Made by a program: the position numbers and the translations under genes. From a virus, in the IMG/VR virus record IMGVR_UViG_3300035438_000817, positions 1 to 64,000 of that record: DNA of 64,000 bases, one strand, 5' to 3'. Position 1 is the first letter of the stretch. Each line of letters begins with the position of its first letter. Shown here piece after piece: positions 43,928 to 52,154 of the stretch. The notes beneath the pieces were generated by a model that searched no databases, had not been told where the DNA came from, and was given only the letters and a program-made list of their open reading frames with translations.

Positions 43928-46777
43928 TTAAGAGGATTTCATTCTTTCTTGTAATGATATTTTATCATTCATTAAATTTATCATTTCATCAACGTTTGAG
44001 TCAATCATACTAATTAAATTAGCTAATAATTTGTCAGATTGTTTTTGTTTTTTACCATAAAACATATTACTATTACCATCATTATCAGGTATAATCATCA
44101 TTCGTTCACGACCATGTAATTCAATTAGATACCCAGTACTTGGACCATCAAATATACCACCAGTTCTGGCGGTTACTTCTGCATGTATGTGACCGCCAGT
44201 CGCTTGGCTAGATGGGTCATTATATTCATCTATTGCTTTTGAAGCACCTGAATTTTTTAAGAAATCAGTTATTTCTTTACTCATTGCTTTTGATATTTTT
44301 CCTCCTCTTGGTACTCCCTGTAAGGTGTAATCAAATGCCAATCCATCTTTATGTGCTGTAGTGCCTCGTTTCATTGTATCATTGAATGCGCTAAATGTTC
44401 CACCAGGATACATATTTTGAAATTTTCTGGCAAGAGCAATTATGTTGTTACTCGCTGATCCACCGGCAATTGCTTCTCCTGGATATTTACCACCTATATT
44501 CAATCCTTGATAGTCTTTTGAGTTGGCAGCCTGACCATTCTGATTATTTTCGTTTTCTTTTGAAATTGCGCTAGAATATATTGAACTTAATTTTTTAGCA
44601 TAATCTGGATCAGTTGCATATCCAGATTTACCCTGAGCAGCTATAGCCTCTGATGCAGTTTTTGCCGCCACCACATCTTTATATCTGGAGTTTGAAGTAA
44701 GTAATCTTACATAATCTGCTGCAGATTCATTCATATTACTATAAGTCATAAATGGCTGGTTTATAGTTACCATTTTACCATTAATAAATTCTTGAGTAGA
44801 TTGAGAATTCTTTCTTTTTCCACTAAAATCTTTTATACCAAAATAGTTATTTCCACCACCTAAACTCTTACCATATCCTGTTTCTAAAGCTGATTGTGTT
44901 GCTCCCAACATTGCAATAGCTTCAGGATTTGGAACTCCAGCTTTTTTTGCTTCTGAATATATTGCAGTATATATATTTTGAAAAAATTCTTTTTGAGGAC
45001 CCTTAAATGACGGTGATCCGCCAGATTGAGATGAGGATGATGAATTAGGTCGCGATCTTTCCGCCTCGGTTTTATATCCTTTTAGTATTTCAAGTTCTAA
45101 TTTTTTTGCAGCAAGTTCTTTTTCTCTTTTTTCCAAATTTCTAAGATTAATATTTTCTAATATAATTAAATTTTTAGTATCTTCTATTTCTTTTTTATCA
45201 GATTTGTCTACAAAATAACCGCTTTTTCCAGCTGCTTTTCTAGCATTTATTTTTTCTTGAGCTTTAATTTGTCTTTTATTATATTCAGCCAACTCGGTAA
45301 TTGAATCTGTTATTTTGTCTCGTACATTATCTTGATCTTCCATTACAATTAAAAGTTCAGGTATATTTTTTCCAACTTGATTAAAAACCCCTTTGATTAA
45401 TGAATTCATTGCCTTAGATATTAATCTCATTGATTTAGTAACCAATGGAATACTCATTGACAATCTTTGAATTGTCAAATTGTTGTCACCCATGTCAATT
45501 CTAGCTCTAGCTAAAGCTTCATCTGTTGTGGTTGGTGGTTTAGTTTTACCCGCCTGAATCATATCTTCTATATCTTTTTGATTTAATTTGGCAAATTGAG
45601 CACCTTTACGTAGTTCAACTGCAACTTTACTATCTAGTGTATCACCGGCCATCATTGCTTGATTCCCTATAACCTGTACATTTTTTACATTGGTTCTTTT
45701 CATGGTATCTACTACATTATTAACTTGACCCAATGGGGAATTAATATGTTTTTGTAAATCTGCTAGAATATCTATGCCAAGTCTACCATAGTGTTGTCTG
45801 ACAACATCAGCCTCATCTGATGTTGCAATGACTCCTTGTTTAAGACCAACCATTAAATCTCTAATACCTTTTTCAGTGATTGGTCCAAATGCAAATTTAG
45901 TTACTTCAAGTAATTTGTTATCTGCTAGATTTTGTTCTATAGTTCGTTTTCCTACAAATATTCTATAACTAGCCTCTTCTTGTCTGGCATCAATTTCTTT
46001 TTGAACTTCTTCTCTTCGTTCACCAGTCATTATACTTATATCAGTAATATTGTTTAAATATTGTTTAAATCTTTCAATATGTTTTGCATCAAATTTTTGT
46101 CGTTCTCCGGTAATTTTTCTTTCATAATCCATATACTTTATCTGACTTGCAGCTAATTCTTTAGTCGTAATTCCAAGTAATTGAAAATCTACTCGTGAAG
46201 TTAATAATGATCCTGATAATTTTTTAAATTCTTGAATCCCGTTAAATGCAGTACCACTCCAAGAAGATAATATTTGACCTTGTCCTTCAAGAAGTTCAGA
46301 TAAATCATTTATTGTAATCATTGTAGATGATGATATATCATCTATTTCATCAAAACTACTTACTAAACCACTTTGACTAAGTTTTTCAAATCCAGTATAT
46401 GTTTTCTCAAATGTTTCAATAGTTGTATTGGCAACTTTTCCCGCAAGTTTAATTGCCTGACCAACAGCTTTACCAACACTACCAAATTTACTAGCCATAC
46501 CACTAGCTAGTGATGTTAGTAATGTTATTGTTTTTGTTAACGGACCAAAACTACTAGAACCAGTAGTTAAACTTTTTCCAATACCAATTAACTCTTGTCC
46601 AAATTTCTCTCCAGAATCAATTAATTTCGCTAATTTTTTCTCTTGATCTTTTTCTTCATTGATTAGTTTTTGTTGACCACGTTCATAACTTGTCATTCCA
46701 GCAGTATTCAAACGAAGTATATCGTTGAAAGACTTTAAATTATCAATATTGATGTTATCTAAATTATTATTGGCCAT
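43928..46777 (-). CDS. Tape-measure-like tail protein 2 with glucosaminidase and M15-like domains
   Basis: 949 residues. Residues about 1-440 parallel the neighbouring gene (TYTGFEKLSQSGLVSSF, LGITTKELAASQIKYMDYER, TDISIMTGERREEVQKEIDA). A coiled coil covers about 490-580. Residues about 595-745 form a GH73/FlgJ-type glucosaminidase: VPNPEAIAMLGATQSALETG (catalytic Glu near 631), YGKSLGGGNNYFGIK. Residues about 770-870 look like an M15-type peptidase: AHKDGLAFDYTL and GGHIHAEV give the HxxxxxxD and HxH zinc ligands. GGIFDGPSTGYLIELHGRER then MMIIPD is a classic tape-measure C-terminal motif. Together this is a tail protein that also breaches peptidoglycan on entry. A late box lies upstream (46819-46826). 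Confidence 0.78.
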   Translation of the reverse strand: MANNNLDNINIDNLKSFNDILRLNTAGMTSYERGQQKLINEEKDQEKKLAKLIDSGEKFGQELIGIGKSLTTGSSSFGPLTKTITLLTSLASGMASKFGSVGKAVGQAIKLAGKVANTTIETFEKTYTGFEKLSQSGLVSSFDEIDDISSSTMITINDLSELLEGQGQILSSWSGTAFNGIQEFKKLSGSLLTSRVDFQLLGITTKELAASQIKYMDYERKITGERQKFDAKHIERFKQYLNNITDISIMTGERREEVQKEIDARQEEASYRIFVGKRTIEQNLADNKLLEVTKFAFGPITEKGIRDLMVGLKQGVIATSDEADVVRQHYGRLGIDILADLQKHINSPLGQVNNVVDTMKRTNVKNVQVIGNQAMMAGDTLDSKVAVELRKGAQFAKLNQKDIEDMIQAGKTKPPTTTDEALARARIDMGDNNLTIQRLSMSIPLVTKSMRLISKAMNSLIKGVFNQVGKNIPELLIVMEDQDNVRDKITDSITELAEYNKRQIKAQEKINARKAAGKSGYFVDKSDKKEIEDTKNLIILENINLRNLEKREKELAAKKLELEILKGYKTEAERSRPNSSSSSQSGGSPSFKGPQKEFFQNIYTAIYSEAKKAGVPNPEAIAMLGATQSALETGYGKSLGGGNNYFGIKDFSGKRKNSQSTQEFINGKMVTINQPFMTYSNMNESAADYVRLLTSNSRYKDVVAAKTASEAIAAQGKSGYATDPDYAKKLSSIYSSAISKENENNQNGQAANSKDYQGLNIGGKYPGEAIAGGSASNNIIALARKFQNMYPGGTFSAFNDTMKRGTTAHKDGLAFDYTLQGVPRGGKISKAMSKEITDFLKNSGASKAIDEYNDPSSQATGGHIHAEVTARTGGIFDGPSTGYLIELHGRERMMIIPDNDGNSNMFYGKKQKQSDKLLANLISMIDSNVDEMINLMNDKISLQERMKSS

Positions 46778-46785
46778 TTTTGCTC

Positions 46786-46793
46786 ACTAAATA
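46786..46793 (+). promoter_or_regulatory. Late promoter (CTAAATA type) of gp26
   Basis: ACTAAATA followed by GTG, about 65 bases before the gp26 ATG. The same CTAAATAGT occurs at 53245 before gp48. Confidence 0.45.
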
Positions 46794-46818
46794 GTGTCTG
46801 AATCAGTGCACTTATAAG

Positions 46819-46826
46819 TATTTATT
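46819..46826 (-). promoter_or_regulatory. Late promoter of the tape-measure-like genes
   Basis: Minus-strand AATAAATA, 42 bases before the ATG at 46777, in the divergent gap shared with gp26. Confidence 0.55.
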
Positions 46827-46857
46827 CTACTATTTTTATCGTTAAAAAGGAACCAAA

Positions 46858-47682
46858 ATGTTAGCCAATAACCCATTAAAACAGTATTTTCGCCGCCCAT
46901 GTTTATATTTCAAACTTCCAAGTGAAGGGAAATATTATTTGCCAGGAGTTGTAGATATTCCGATAAATGGAGAATTGCCTGTTTATCCAATGACCGCTAT
47001 TGATGAAATGACTATTAGAACACCAGATGGATTATTTAATGGTGCGGCTGTTATTGAATTGATTAAAAGTTGTATTCCAAATGTGTTAGATCCATGGAAA
47101 TTAAATAACGTTGACTTAGATGCCGTACTAATAGCTATTAGAGCCGCTGCAAATAATGGTAAAATGTCTATAGATTCAGAATGTCCATCATGTAATGAAA
47201 AAACTGAATATGATATTGATTTGATGCCAATGTTGGCAGATATGAAAGATGTAAACTACAATCAAGTATTAAAAATTAGAGAATTAGAAATAAAATTTAA
47301 ACCATTAACATTTGAAGATACCAATAAAAATGGATTAGATCAAATGGATATTCAAAGAGCATTAATGAATTTGGATTCTTATTCAGATGAAGAAAAACAA
47401 ATTGCAATGAATAATACACTTAAAAAATTAAATGATATGGTTATAAAAGTTATATCTGATACCATTGATTATATTAGAACTCCAGAATTAACAGTTACAG
47501 AAAAAGAATATATTATTGAATTTTTAAATAACTGTGATAGAGAAACTAATAACACAATTAAAGATTATAGTATAAAATTACGAGAGGCAAGTGAACTTAA
47601 ACCAATTAATGTTCATTGTCCTCAATGTCAACATGAATATCAACAAAAAATTGTATTAAATGTTACGGATTTTTTCGCCTAA
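46858..47682 (+). CDS. gp26: Baseplate hub assembly protein gp26
   Basis: 274 residues. It matches the T4 gp26-type baseplate family: FKLPSEGKYYLPGVV, MTAIDEMTIRTPDGLFNGAA, VIELIKSCIPNVLDPWKL, VDLDAVLIAIRAAANNGKMS. Two CxxC pairs (CPSCNEKTEY near 110; HCPQCQHEYQQ near 255) probably bind zinc. AAAAGGAACCAAA precedes the ATG. The gene ends in TTTTTTCGCCTAA, where a slippery heptamer allows fusion to the following -1 frame. It is alone on the plus strand here, facing the tape-measure genes. Confidence 0.88.
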   Translation: MLANNPLKQYFRRPCLYFKLPSEGKYYLPGVVDIPINGELPVYPMTAIDEMTIRTPDGLFNGAAVIELIKSCIPNVLDPWKLNNVDLDAVLIAIRAAANNGKMSIDSECPSCNEKTEYDIDLMPMLADMKDVNYNQVLKIRELEIKFKPLTFEDTNKNGLDQMDIQRALMNLDSYSDEEKQIAMNNTLKKLNDMVIKVISDTIDYIRTPELTVTEKEYIIEFLNNCDRETNNTIKDYSIKLREASELKPINVHCPQCQHEYQQKIVLNVTDFFA

Positions 47683-47717
47683 GGCTTCTTAATCTTAATC
47701 CTGACGAGATTAGGAAG
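47670..47717 (+). promoter_or_regulatory. Programmed -1 ribosomal frameshift signal
   Basis: Slippery heptamer T TTT TTC at 47670-47676, in the correct phase for gp26 codons TTT and TTC. An 8-base spacer contains the gp26 stop region. A 10-bp stem follows (47685-47694 CTTCTTAATC with 47708-47717 GATTAGGAAG, one G-U pair) closed by a 13-base loop. After a one-base backward slip, reading continues CGC CTA AGG CTT with no stop until 47906. The stem also hides AGGAAG, the only Shine-Dalgarno-like sequence for internal starts in the downstream frame. Confidence 0.8.
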
Positions 47718-47906
47718 CTGACAGATGATATGGAAAAGGAACGTTGGAATATATCCTTCAATGCACAAAAATTGGCTTGGTATATGCGAGGTGGCATTGA
47801 TTACGTTGATATCTTAAATATGAGTCATATGGAAATTGACAATCTAAATGTTATCATTGATGAACATATGGAAACTACTAAGAAAACTAAATTACCATTC
47901 TTTTAA
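47676..47906 (+). CDS. gp51: gp51-like baseplate hub assembly ORF, expressed as a gp26 -1 frameshift extension
   Basis: 76 codons in the -1 frame after gp26, running from the slip site to TAA at 47904-47906. The peptide begins RLRLLNLNPDEIRKLTDDM and continues NISFNAQKLAWYMRGG, YVDILNMSHMEIDNL, ending KTKLPFF. Its pattern (short helical protein with a 'bottom' WxRGGI...L..M...EI.. element) and position after gp26 match the short gp51 of marine T4-like phages. There is no ATG near the gp26 stop. The first in-frame ATG (47730) would drop 18 well-formed coding codons. A 349-residue gp26-gp51 fusion is therefore the best reading, analogous to the lambda G/GT tail chaperones. Confidence 0.75.
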   Translation, partial: RLRLLNLNPDEIRKLTDDMEKERWNISFNAQKLAWYMRGGIDYVDILNMSHMEIDNLNVIIDEHMETTKKTKLPFF

Positions 47907-47913
47907 TACAAAT

Positions 47914-47966
47914 GGATGAACTAGTTCATCCGCCAGTGACCTATCGGTACACTGGCATTTTCTTTT
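47914..47966 (+). terminator. Terminator after gp26/gp51
   Basis: A perfect palindrome GGATGAACTAGTTCATCC (47914-47931) is followed at once by a GCCAGTG/CACTGGC stem (47932-47938 with 47950-47956) and ATTTTCTTTT. The second hairpin with its T-run is a rho-independent terminator for the plus-strand unit. Confidence 0.75.
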
Positions 47967-48000
47967 ATGTCTTTGAAATTATATACGTAAAAGATGTTTT

Positions 48001-48070
48001 GTGTCACTGCTAGCGAGTGATAACGAGCGATGTGACACAATACGGGTTGTTGAGCGTAGCGATACAACCC
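48001..48070. repeat. Two further hairpins with related loops
   Basis: GTGTCAC (48001-48007) pairs with GTGACAC (48032-48038), and GGGTTGT (48044-48050) pairs with ACAACCC (48064-48070). Both loops carry a GAGCG..AGCGAT-like sequence, so the two may be copies. No T-run follows directly. Confidence 0.6.
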
Positions 48071-48419
48071 ATTACTTAGATATCTATATAAGTAAAATTA
48101 TTTAACTCACTGAATAAATTACAATCACCCCCCTCTTTTTCTTCTATTAAACCAGATATTTTCTCTGGGGGAAGAACGTTCGCCGAAGCACCGATAAAAC
48201 CCTACTACAATTTGTCATTGATCTGTTGACGCAGTAAAATTCCTTCCGAGAGGATGGTTACGTTTAGAGACTAGTTGCGCTTAGTATTGTCCACGCTTTG
48301 GTCTTACTCCACAGACAGTGGTCGGATTGTCTGTAACGTTTCTAGTTATATTAGACAGGTAATTGTTTGACCTGTGGGCTACATGATGTTTCATGTGCCT
48401 TGCTCTGTTTAGTGTAGTT
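48071..48419. other. Non-coding structured region between convergent units
   Basis: About 350 bases with no open frame of note on either strand and a higher GC content than the flanks. Inverted repeats include ACAGAC/GTCTGT (48311-48316 with 48329-48334), ACAGGT/ACCTGT (48355-48360 with 48370-48375), and a competing long-range pair CCACAG/CTGTGG (48309-48314 with 48372-48377). No tRNA cloverleaf was found. It may hold a small RNA or be a leftover of an exchanged gene. Confidence 0.5.
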
Positions 48420-49016
48420 TTAGATTGTGTTTAAAGTGTTGTTAGACTTGATGTCAGTTGAGTATTTTGTAGATTGTTGATTAGATGAGAGTAGTTTGAC
48501 CAAATATCCATATCTCTGAAAAAATGGTTCAAACGAGTATATATTCCAAGCACCATATACTCTAGTTGAATAGGTTACATGATTTAAATCCATCCATATC
48601 CCAGTTTGTTGTTTCTGATGATGTAGAATAGCGGTCTTGGATTGTACTGCTACATAGCGACCTTTACGATTAAACTTCATTAATAAGATATTGAAATCAT
48701 CTGGATCACTAGCGGTCATCAATTGATCTATCCACGTTTCTAATTGTTTGGATTCGTCAAATAGTTGATGAAATTGAAAATCAGCATAAAACTTACATTC
48801 ACAATTGAACAATGGAAAACTTTGACCAGGAATAATATCTCCTTTGAAGTTTCTAATTTGTCCTTCATGTAATATTTGTTTACGATGACTATTAGTGCCA
48901 CCAGTATAAGCTCCAGAACCAGGCGCTCTCATGAAGTTCTCTCCATATAACTCTGAGAGAAATTTGGATACTTCACGTTCAAACCCGCTTCCTTTGTTTT
49001 TACTTTTACTTGGCAT
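48420..49016 (-). CDS. PD-(D/E)XK-type nuclease
   Basis: 198 residues from the ATG at 49016 (MPSKSKNKGSGFEREVSKFL). A longer frame reaches 49097, but that extension would overlap the end of gp46 and lacks a ribosome site, while AAAGAG lies before 49016. The motifs GSGFEREVSKFLSELYGE, APGSGAYTGG, KGDIIPGQSF and FNCECKFYADF give the E...D...ExK set of restriction-endonuclease-fold enzymes (Holliday-junction resolvase/RecB-like). It is last in the gp55-gp47-gp46 unit, so a role in recombination or DNA processing is likely. The exact substrate is unknown. Confidence 0.72.
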   Translation of the reverse strand: MPSKSKNKGSGFEREVSKFLSELYGENFMRAPGSGAYTGGTNSHRKQILHEGQIRNFKGDIIPGQSFPLFNCECKFYADFQFHQLFDESKQLETWIDQLMTASDPDDFNILLMKFNRKGRYVAVQSKTAILHHQKQQTGIWMDLNHVTYSTRVYGAWNIYSFEPFFQRYGYLVKLLSSNQQSTKYSTDIKSNNTLNTI

Positions 49017-49053
49017 GGTAATACTTATCTCTTTATTGTTAAATTTAAATATT

Positions 49054-51141
49054 TTATACTGTTGTTTCTGTAGTAGTTTCATATGATGTGAAACCACCTT
49101 CTTTAATAACTTTAAGTACGCTAGACACTCTATTTGTTAGTTCATCTCTATGTGATACAAGCCAAACTGATTTGTTACGTCTACGTGCCATATCTTTGAG
49201 TAGTGCAATACTGTTTTCAACACCAATAGTATCTAAACCATTATCAATCAACTCATCAACAAATAATACATTGATAGGACTGTATAATGATTCGTATACA
49301 TCTCTGAATGAAAAGGATAGCCCAAGGATCAGTCTATTACGCTCACCACGACTTAGATTATCAAAGTCTAACTCACGTCCTAGCTCAGTGATTTCAACTG
49401 TTAAATCATTCTGAAATACAACTGTATGTGGTAAACCCATGGAATCCAAATAAAATGATAGACGACTGTTCAAATAAGTTAAATTTTGTTCAATAATCTT
49501 TTTACGAACAAAAGATTTTTTGCTTGTCAATAAGTCTAACAAGTATTCCTGATGTTGCATAAGTCTAGTCAATTCATTAATATGATCAAATGATACAGTT
49601 TGAATGGCTTCACGTTCCATTTCAGAGATTTGATCTATATATGGATCAGTTTCGTCATGTTTGTTGGAAATTTGATCCAACAAACTCTCAACACGACTAC
49701 TATGTTTGATAGCCTCTGATTCAGTCTTATAGTGTGTGACTGGTTCTTCACCACATACAATCTCGCTCTCAGAAATATCCATGATCTGTAGAATGTATGG
49801 GTCTTCCGCTTGACGCAAGTTCTCAATCTCTATCTTTAAGTTTATGACTGTGTAGCTATGTTTAATGGCTTCACTCTCTGTCTTGTAGTGTGGAACTGGC
49901 TTGTCATTAAGTTCAACAATCAATTCTTCTACTCTTTTTAATTCATCTAACAATTGATGTTCACGATCTACTGATGAATCATATGCTTCGTTCTTTGCCA
50001 GCAATACCGCACTGTGACTGTTATCATGAAAATCTTGACCACAAGCATAGCATTTGTTCTCATTGAGCGTCATCATCTCTTTGCCTAGTTTCAAAGTGAT
50101 ATTTGATTGTTTGATCGTCTCGTTGTGAATACGGTCTATTTCTTTTTTTAACGCTGTCTGTTCAACGTTCTGTTGATTGTACACAGCAAGGTCTTTATGA
50201 GATTGTAACTCCATCTCAATATCAATTGCATTCAAGACTTCAAGTCTCTCTCCTAACGCTTTGATATCATTGACTCGTGTTTGCTTCCATATCTTTTGTT
50301 TTGCAACAAGATTGTCGTAATTATTTTTTTTCTCTAAACAAGATAGATAAATGGAACGATCTTTATGTGACTGTAGTTCAACAATAATATCAATCTTGCT
50401 TAATTCATCGTATTCGTTGACCAGTTTGTTCAAATCTTCATCATGCTTTGTTTGCCATAAACGTTGACGGCGTTTGAGATTCTCAATCTGCTCGCCAATT
50501 CGTTTATTGGCTTCTTCAAGCGCACGTATACGATACTCTTCTTGTTGAATATCATCTTTGGTCTGTTTGTTCAGTATCTTAATGGCATCAGCCTTTTCAG
50601 ATAAGATAGTAACACCCAATAACTGTTCAATGATAACACGTTGATCATTGGCTTTGAGTGATAGAAATGGTTCATTATAAGTATTCAGACCAACAATGTG
50701 TCTAAACATGTCACTACTCATATGTAAGACCTTTTCAATAGCGTCCTGAGTTTCACGACTGTCACCTTGACTATCATTGGTCTCTTCACTAGCCATTTCT
50801 TGATCATTTACATAAAATTTCAAAAATGTAGGTTTACGTCCACGTTCAATTCGGTACTCAATATCATCAACTGAGAATGACAATGTAACAACCATGGCTT
50901 TACCATTGGTTCTGTTAATCAAATTGTCTTTCTTGATATTATTGATACCGCCACCAAACAAGGAATATGATAATCCCTGTAAGATACTGGTTTTACCAGT
51001 ACCATTCTTAGCACCATCGCCGCCCAAGTCTAGATTTTCACCTAGAATCAATGTTAGGTCTTGATTATTGAAATTAACTGTTTGGGTAATCGCCCCAATA
51101 GATAGAAAATTCTTAAGAGTTAATACGCCTAGTGTAATCAT
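49054..51141 (-). CDS. gp46: Recombination endonuclease subunit gp46 (Rad50/SbcC-like)
   Basis: 695 residues. Walker A is at GDGAKNGTGKTS (41-52). A coiled coil runs from about 170 to 560, with the zinc hook CYACGQ near 362 at its apex. The ABC signature LSRGERNRL is near 597, Walker B NVLFVDELID near 627, and the final LVSHRDE switch is near the C-terminus. It forms the ATPase part of the gp46/gp47 nuclease that resects DNA ends for recombination-dependent replication. Its start overlaps the gp47 stop by four bases. The length is above T4 gp46 (560), with a longer coil. Confidence 0.95.
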   Translation of the reverse strand: MITLGVLTLKNFLSIGAITQTVNFNNQDLTLILGENLDLGGDGAKNGTGKTSILQGLSYSLFGGGINNIKKDNLINRTNGKAMVVTLSFSVDDIEYRIERGRKPTFLKFYVNDQEMASEETNDSQGDSRETQDAIEKVLHMSSDMFRHIVGLNTYNEPFLSLKANDQRVIIEQLLGVTILSEKADAIKILNKQTKDDIQQEEYRIRALEEANKRIGEQIENLKRRQRLWQTKHDEDLNKLVNEYDELSKIDIIVELQSHKDRSIYLSCLEKKNNYDNLVAKQKIWKQTRVNDIKALGERLEVLNAIDIEMELQSHKDLAVYNQQNVEQTALKKEIDRIHNETIKQSNITLKLGKEMMTLNENKCYACGQDFHDNSHSAVLLAKNEAYDSSVDREHQLLDELKRVEELIVELNDKPVPHYKTESEAIKHSYTVINLKIEIENLRQAEDPYILQIMDISESEIVCGEEPVTHYKTESEAIKHSSRVESLLDQISNKHDETDPYIDQISEMEREAIQTVSFDHINELTRLMQHQEYLLDLLTSKKSFVRKKIIEQNLTYLNSRLSFYLDSMGLPHTVVFQNDLTVEITELGRELDFDNLSRGERNRLILGLSFSFRDVYESLYSPINVLFVDELIDNGLDTIGVENSIALLKDMARRRNKSVWLVSHRDELTNRVSSVLKVIKEGGFTSYETTTETTV

Positions 51142-52154
51142 ATGTTTCTATAAATGTCTAATAATAACTTCTTGTCAAATGTCCCTACTTCCAAACTTTC
51201 AATTTGTGTTTGAATAATTGTATCTACACTTTCAAATTGAGTATTTGTATTATCTGGATTATTGTCTGTAAAATCTCGTTTGATTGGTATTAATGTAAGT
51301 TCTCTAAGATGATGTTCTGGCATTAGTTTTTCACGAATGAAACTTGCCTCTTCAAATGAGATATCAATATCTAAATTGATTTTAACATAACTATCAGGTA
51401 ATAACAAGCCAGCTGGATCATCAAGTACATCACTTAAATTATATACACGATATTTGGGAGCATTAGGCCAACCAAAATACATTGGTTCTTTGTCCCATTC
51501 TAACATCATCATACCACGTTTATCATCACCAGCATCACTATAGTTATGAGGGAAAGCATTTCCAATATAAGTAATGTTATTTTTCTTTTGACGTTTATGA
51601 AAGTGACCACTGAATACGGCTTCATATCCATGTAAATGTTCACTTTGAATTTCTTTATAATCTGGCATTTGAATCATGGCATTCATAAAGAAATTTGGAA
51701 GTTCTAGATGAGAGAATACATATTTCCCTTTCATCTTTTTAAGACGTTTCCATTCATCTCCAACGATCCACGGAATGATAGATACATCTCCCTGTGTGAA
51801 CCATTCATCTATAATAATGACATTTGGAAGATGTTTTGCCCATTCTACTGAATGAGTATCTCTTTTATCTCTATAAAACATATCGTGATTACCCACGATA
51901 AAGTATATTTTATCAAATGCCGCACTTAACTTTTCAAGACCTCTAAGACTAAACTGTAGAGTTTGAATGTTAATAGCGGCACGATTGTGATGCCAATCAC
52001 CTAGAAAGAAACAGGTTTCACAGTTTTGTTTTTTAGCAGTTTCAATAAACCAATCAACAAAGTTTGTACAATCCGTATTATGTTGTATTGAATTGTTTTT
52101 CAAACCCCAATGTATATCAGTGAATGCAGCTGCTTTTTTAAATAAATTTGTCAT
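51138..52154 (-). CDS. gp47: Recombination endonuclease subunit gp47 (Mre11/SbcD-like)
   Basis: 338 residues. Calcineurin-type phosphoesterase motifs are in order: FTDIHWG (D13, H15), FFLGDWHHNR, FIVGNHDMFYRD, YVFSHLE, and VFSGHFHKRQ, supplying the two-metal site. It is the nuclease partner of gp46, to which it is coupled. A sigma70-like promoter lies immediately upstream (-10 TATAAT six bases before the ATG), so a transcript from it would be leaderless. No Shine-Dalgarno sequence is seen. Confidence 0.95.
   Translation of the reverse strand: MTNLFKKAAAFTDIHWGLKNNSIQHNTDCTNFVDWFIETAKKQNCETCFFLGDWHHNRAAINIQTLQFSLRGLEKLSAAFDKIYFIVGNHDMFYRDKRDTHSVEWAKHLPNVIIIDEWFTQGDVSIIPWIVGDEWKRLKKMKGKYVFSHLELPNFFMNAMIQMPDYKEIQSEHLHGYEAVFSGHFHKRQKKNNITYIGNAFPHNYSDAGDDKRGMMMLEWDKEPMYFGWPNAPKYRVYNLSDVLDDPAGLLLPDSYVKINLDIDISFEEASFIREKLMPEHHLRELTLIPIKRDFTDNNPDNTNTQFESVDTIIQTQIESLEVGTFDKKLLLDIYRNI

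Follow-up and report, generated by a model that had tools for sequence, protein, structure and literature searches.

In phage lambda, a −1 shift near the end of the short-chaperone gene leads to a minor long form, gpGT, with a C-terminal domain, a layout that the locus described here resembles. Lambda G and GT occur at about 30:1 and act on the tape measure protein, as stated in a passage of PMC5009743, which also calls G-T frameshifting widely conserved “except T4”. In T4 itself, gp26 and gp51 are listed as hub assembly chaperones in the relevant passage of a review (PMC3004832), where gp51 is absent from the particle and genetic studies are said to support gp26 being in the hub. A study by Vladimirov, Gautam and Davidson (2022, Virology 566:9-15) is cited in a passage of the PRFect paper (PMC10885494) for T4-like phages having one short and one fused long tail assembly chaperone (TAC) gene, and in a passage of the Adele paper (PMC12846349) for poly-T slippery signals in T4-like TAC-N genes. 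Going by these two citing papers, the mechanism appears to be already in print for the T4-like lineage, and the remark of an earlier note on this DNA, that no description was known for gp26/gp51 of T4-like phages, cannot be upheld.

We analyzed such a locus in a stretch of 64,000 nucleotides (hereafter, the window), which is part of a 69.5-kb virus record (IMGVR_UViG_3300035438_000817). The comparative data make it highly probable that this locus specifies a tail assembly chaperone in two forms by means of a programmed −1 ribosomal frameshift. The frameshift reading, which the earlier note had proposed from the letters of the window, is now supported by a heptamer kept in 80/80 relatives (the best 80 of 235), by −1 coding without a start codon, by covariation at the foot of a stem, and by homology.

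The heptamer at the end of gp26

The gp26 homologue of the window, the predicted short form (TAC-N), is an open reading frame of 274 residues at 46858..47682 on the plus strand, which matches PF12322 (T4_baseplate, E 4.1e-16) and PHROG 150 (E 2.1e-15) and contains two CxxC pairs. Its last codons are GAT TTT TTC GCC TAA, so that the canonical heptamer T TTT TTC, at 47670..47676 on the plus strand, lies in phase with gp26 (the third base of GAT, then TTT TTC), as had been claimed. The zero-frame UAA stop of gp26 (47680..47682, plus strand) falls within the spacer between this heptamer and a downstream stem. The −1 frame is free of stops from the heptamer to 47903 and closes at 47904–47906. The putative C-terminal extension in this frame (TAC-C, gp51-like; 47676..47906, plus strand) thus has the predicted 76 codons plus a stop, and translation across the slip gives a joined product of 349 residues, made up of gp26 residues 1–273 and the −1 extension, in agreement with the fusion of about 349 residues anticipated beforehand.

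Both strands of the window hold 78 open reading frames of at least 80 residues, and these were scanned for an in-phase XXXYYYZ (Y = A/T) within the final 60 nt together with a −1 frame that stays open over 50 or more codons beyond the stop. Among the 78, gp26 alone pairs a heptamer of this type with such a −1 frame. A search of IMG/VR with gp26 yielded 235 relatives, of which the best 80 were analyzed. TTTTTTC was found exactly 10 nt before the stop in 80/80 of these, so that the heptamer, whose conservation across related loci had been suggested as a check, is kept at a constant distance from the stop, and the −1 ORF, counted from the gp26 stop, was 75 codons long in all 80. Clustering at 90% identity, by a rough ungapped measure, reduced the 80 relatives to 45 representatives, with the four gp26 sequences that are 100% identical to that of the window (L001–L004) collapsed in these counts; the heptamer was kept in 45/45. 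Phenylalanine codons elsewhere in the same genes were mixed (239 TTT to 123 TTC), indicating that the invariant TTT-TTC pair does not reflect codon preference. This conservation makes a chance occurrence of the heptamer very unlikely.

A separate search with the −1 product returned 10 loci. Four of them (L081–L084) lie on the contigs of L001–L004 and were left out; the heptamer was present in 6/6 of those examined, two of which are on contigs already counted. Among the best 80 of at least 600 cyanophage-like IMG/VR loci, TTTTTTC occurred in 79/79 of those with a stop, at 10 nt before it in 78 and at 13 nt in one (L116), L160 having been dropped from the count as a locus containing no stop. In one of these loci (L141), the −1 ORF runs off the end of the contig.

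Directly after the −1 ORF stop of the window, a perfect inverted repeat was seen at 47914–47931; another hairpin, with T-rich sequence behind it, lies within 47914–47965, although an automatic scan of that segment reported the first repeat only, on the minus strand. This segment is a possible terminator of the gp26/−1 ORF transcript. Further downstream, two adjacent minus-strand genes (49054–52154) look, by reading, like a gp46/gp47 (SbcC/SbcD-like) recombination pair, and gp46/gp47 genes also lie near gp26 in RaK2-like records.

A stem-loop past the gp26 stop

A stem-loop, the probable stimulator, was found at 47683..47719 on the plus strand (MFE fold −18.7 kcal/mol, z −2.21), with covariation at two of its outer pairs. 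In the MFE fold of 47672–47740, 14 pairs join 47683–47696 with 47706–47719, and 6 of 200 dinucleotide shuffles folded as well as the native stem-loop. The stem begins 6 nt past the heptamer, directly after the gp26 stop. A stem-loop after the heptamer is therefore present as claimed, but it has 14 bp rather than 10 and starts 6 nt rather than 8 nt downstream. A search of Rfam for 46000–49500 returned nothing relevant.

Conservation of the stem was uneven along its length. The outer six pairs were formed in 327 of 336 cells (56 distinct window-family sequences), and two-sided changes occurred at pairs 15–49 (GC to AU, 6 sequences) and 19–45 (CG to UA, 8 sequences), whereas the inner pairs form in about half to two thirds of the window-family sequences at several positions. 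For the whole 14-pair stem in the window family, 79.8% of cells were paired, as compared with 76.1% in shuffles and at most 54.6% in slid structures, and the covariation score of 0.215 exceeded those of the shuffles (0.156 ± 0.008) and of the slid structures (no more than 0.125). Two of the five measures applied to this stem, namely the counts of pair types and of pairs showing two-sided change, were not above the shuffles, and RNAalifold predicted no consensus structure for the window-family or the cyanophage alignment. The cyanophage-like loci carry a different, less uniform stem directly past the stop, with 69.3% of cells paired; in their alignment, which was made without L116 because of its heptamer at −13, two-sided changes are more numerous in one slid structure than in the stem (39 versus 24 cells). 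Part of the conservation of the arms is a protein constraint, since the arms also encode conserved residues. The proposed test of stem conservation thus gave a divided answer, with the outer six pairs kept and covarying at two positions and the inner pairs variable. A downstream RNA structure at a fixed spacer is present for the foot of the stem only, and the stem as a whole may best be regarded as a real but loosely built element with a predicted stimulatory action.

Named phages, start codons and rival explanations

The ends of gp26 were examined in 22 named-phage records, and the same heptamer was found in RaK2-like, alphaproteobacterial, KVP40-like and cyanophage gp26 genes. TTTTTTC followed by an open −1 ORF was present in 13 of the 22 phages (Atu_ph07, Phosso, PA5oct, RaK2, GAP32, Vibrio 2.275.O, SCTP-2, 121Q, CBB, Munch, S-SSM7, PC-Liy1 and S-RIM8), and two others (XacN1 and CM1) have an open −1 ORF behind TTTTTTT, located 37 and 40 nt before the stop. 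S-SCSM1 (1/22) keeps TTTTTTC, yet a stop follows after only a few codons of its −1 frame. Its gp51 is found in the +1 frame instead, with an ATG of its own (L101, 4660–4720), and a comparison by eye with neighbours such as L168 showed an apparent short insertion after the gp26 stop; S-SCSM1 is perhaps a recent loss of the frameshift. No T-run heptamer was found at the gp26 end of the remaining six (T4, AM101, SD25, 44RR, Skers and Miro). The gp26 genes of T4 and Miro contain an in-phase TTTAAAG at −103 and −13, respectively, with no gp51 in the −1 frame behind it. By annotation, two full genes, one short and one long, are present in T4, 44RR, Skers, Miro and AM101; in Klebsiella phage Miro (L206, 2940–4234), the gene of the long chaperone (247 aa) and that of the short one (184 aa) stand in tandem, which is another arrangement of the duplicated chaperone pair. 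In the Ackermannvirid Vibrio phage SD25 (L103, 4500–4695), the gp26 homologue overlaps by TAATG a gene of 58 residues and has no heptamer; this small ORF has a weak match to the gp51 family (E 0.075). Two separate ORFs without the heptamer, the arrangement that the earlier note had set against its own reading, were accordingly seen only in other groups and not among near relatives.

Fifteen named phages combine the site with an open −1 ORF. Annotation is available for 14 of them, and the joined gene is annotated in 0/14. The downstream piece is missing from the records of PA5oct and RaK2, truncated in those of Atu_ph07 and S-RIM8, and a separate gene in those of Phosso and 121Q. Our data correct these annotations in that the downstream piece would belong to a predicted joined gene in the named phages.

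Records that draw the downstream piece as a gene of its own are in line with a different explanation, in which gp51 is initiated independently, either from the ATG at 47730 or through translational coupling to the end of gp26, the T run being incidental. The ATG at 47730 is available, and it is the first ATG, GTG or TTG in the −1 frame of the window, in accordance with the claim that no start lies near the gp26 stop. The SD-like AGGA (47712–47715), at least 12 nt from this ATG, lies inside the 3′ arm of the stem, buried there as described. A product initiated at 47730 would have 58 residues and would be without the N-terminal portion of the extension, which is conserved. In 18 of the 45 representatives, the −1 frame offers a possible start ahead of codon 17, being an ATG that overlaps the gp26 stop in 10 of them, and in 48 of 63 cyanophage-like representatives an ATG first occurs 2 codons after the stop, so the argument from missing starts is weaker in those sequences; the TAATG overlap of SD25 and the +1 frame of S-SCSM1 also favor separate genes. 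The other 27 of the 45 representatives, however, have no ATG, GTG or TTG before codon 17. Over codons 2–17 of these 27, stops occur in the −1 frame of 0/27 and in the other two frames of 23/27 and 26/27, and the differences (0.334, 0.267 and 0.519) fall mostly on third positions of the −1 frame. As judged from these patterns, the start-less stretch is evolving as −1-frame coding sequence, and coding ahead of any start codon would be difficult to account for unless ribosomes came in from gp26. Together with a heptamer that is invariant beyond codon usage, this leaves independent initiation of gp51 an improbable account.

The T run itself could also give rise to mixed frames by slippage of the polymerase during transcription, for which six T, and seven in XacN1 and CM1, might be taken as a substrate. 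Six-base runs are short for polymerase slippage. Moreover, in 80/80 relatives (best 80 of 235) and in 79/79 cyanophage-like loci the run has a length of exactly six T with C as the next base, it is placed as X XXY YYZ, and a stem with covariation at its foot lies downstream, which together make slippage at transcription highly improbable. Homopolymer runs are also prone to error, and one long gene could have been broken by sequencing or assembly. The same break is found in 80/80 contigs, in 79/79 cyanophage-like loci and in 15 named phages, and the listed named relatives share less than 33% identity with the window protein. A conserved frame break of this kind is the decisive argument against an assembly error, the probability of which we consider negligible. 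Independent initiation, transcriptional slippage and assembly error were rejected on the evidence of conservation, −1 coding and the stem.

For programmed −1 frameshifting, the following course is proposed. Most ribosomes would read gp26 to the UAA and release the short form of 274 residues, while the stem-loop past the stop would hold some of them at T TTT TTC, where the two tRNA-Phe may slip back by one base, from UUU-UUC to UUU-UUU. The slipped ribosomes would read 76 more codons, which specify a helical domain, and yield the long form of 349 residues. The short and long forms would probably act together in holding the tape measure protein, for which the 949-residue neighbour is the likely candidate, and in recruiting tail-tube subunits, after which the chaperones would leave the particle, as in lambda G and GT. 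Slippage, its ratio, stimulation by the stem and the chaperone role are what we infer for the window phage.

Homology, probable chaperone function and comparison with known pairs

An AlphaFold model of gp26 (pLDDT 87.7) matched viral baseplate hub assembly proteins in a search of viral folds (best E 2e-23); a Foldseek search of this model against the PDB returned nothing (best E 1.5). Other large phages, e.g., phiEaH2, phiRSL1 and PS1, also contributed larger unnamed proteins to the viral fold matches, hinting that gp26-like chaperones may be spread more widely than sequence families suggest. The extension was modelled as four helices (pLDDT 88.2), with an unnamed protein of 72 residues as its best viral fold match (E 0.008), and no Pfam, PHROGs or NCBIfam family scored above the cut-off for it, the best Pfam match (E 0.029) being well below the curated score.

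T4 gp26 (208 aa) and T4 gp51 (249 aa) both match PF12322 and are paralogues (hhalign 97.9%), and the C-terminus of T4 gp51 matches PHROG 634, as does cyanophage gp51. In the long-form comparisons, which are single comparisons from shallow alignments, cyanophage long forms aligned over the junction to residues 61–246 of T4 gp51 (98.8%, E 8e-17), suggesting that T4 gp51 is the counterpart of the frameshifted long form, as T4 gp26 is of the short form. Window-family and cyanophage long forms matched over residues 63–343 (96.9%, E 1.4e-10), and the window long form matched T4 gp26 (86.8%); the window short form is homologous to T4 gp26. Compared directly with T4 gp51, the window-family long form matched over residues 50–148 only (60.7%), the RaK2-like long forms reached 37.0%, and the window extension alone gave only a weak value with the T4 gp51 C-terminus (17.5%) and no direct match. 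One sequence (L200) was left out of the T4 gp51 set, its frame stopping at 120 aa. As the window extension is too diverged to match T4 directly, the link runs via the cyanophage long forms.

The short and long proteins most likely represent TAC-N and TAC-NC, the counterparts of lambda G and GT. The “hub assembly factor” of the earlier note is better read as a tape-measure/tail assembly chaperone, although its production in two forms is supported, and the parallel with G/GT that was drawn there gained support from the comparative evidence. In the AM101 record, gp26, gp51 and gp28 are labelled “tape measure protein assembly chaperone”. The genetic support for T4 gp26 being in the hub lowered our confidence in the frameshift and chaperone reading slightly, although it stays high. 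Observations on CBB bear only indirectly on a predicted absence of the chaperone from the virion. In the virion list of the CBB paper, CBB_251 is represented by 29 peptides and CBB_250 is absent, and CBB_249 does not occur in its main text; conversely, CBB_250 is labelled “structural protein” in its record.

The gene divergent from gp26 (43928..46777, minus strand) encodes 949 residues with a glucosaminidase domain (PF01832, E 7e-21). In 77/77 relatives with at least 700 nt of upstream sequence, the start of a divergent ORF of 200 codons or more lies no further than 300 nt from gp26. The 949-residue protein matched the corresponding RaK2 neighbour over about 280 residues (blastp E 1e-9). The annotators of RaK2 compared this neighbour with a tape measure protein, whereas PHROGs places the neighbour proteins of RaK2, CBB and 121Q under “head and packaging”. 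Tape measure proteins span 0.15 nm per residue, at which the CBB neighbour of 722 residues would correspond to approximately 108 nm. The measured CBB tail is 123 nm, baseplate and collar included. The 949-residue neighbour is the best tape measure candidate.

Vladimirov and colleagues reportedly found frameshifting to be conserved in several T4-like groups, with T4 using genes 26 and 51. A search of titles and abstract openings, in literature without most subscription journals, returned none on the site in RaK2-like or jumbo phages. We tentatively suggest that T TTT TTC with its stem is ancestral to the whole T4-related group and near-unchanged in the jumbo, KVP40-like and cyanophage lines, that T4-type phages replaced recoding by duplication (genes 26/51), and that S-SCSM1 and SD25 left by other routes, although the odds are somewhat against this history. 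If it were true, the loss of a programmed frameshift could be followed in these phages as a set of natural experiments, with the jumbo-phage branch as an undescribed one. The present data add jumbo phages to those that appear to make a tail chaperone in two forms, and allow a natural comparison of recoding, gene duplication and overlap coupling for one protein pair.

Compared with lambda, the window pair would work like G/GT by its anatomy, and a set ratio and an action on the tape measure protein may follow by likeness; the window differs in having T TTT TTC with a stem and a candidate tape measure gene that is divergent rather than downstream. T4 genes 26 and 51 likewise provide short and long chaperones, but as two separate divergent genes, and the T4 gene 26 end has no T-run heptamer, unlike that of the window. 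The TAC genes of Vandenendeviridae and Andersonviridae (phage Adele) also use a −1 shift at a conserved poly-T and have a downstream piece that is routinely annotated as a separate hypothetical gene, whereas their motif is GTTTTT, in different phage families, as described in a passage of PMC12846349. Also among the closest systems is that of the T4-like gp26/gp51 TACs (Vladimirov 2022), which belong to the same family as the window protein (PF12322, PHROG 150 and 634), and to which the locus adds a well-documented further member, with an RNA stem downstream and natural exceptions.
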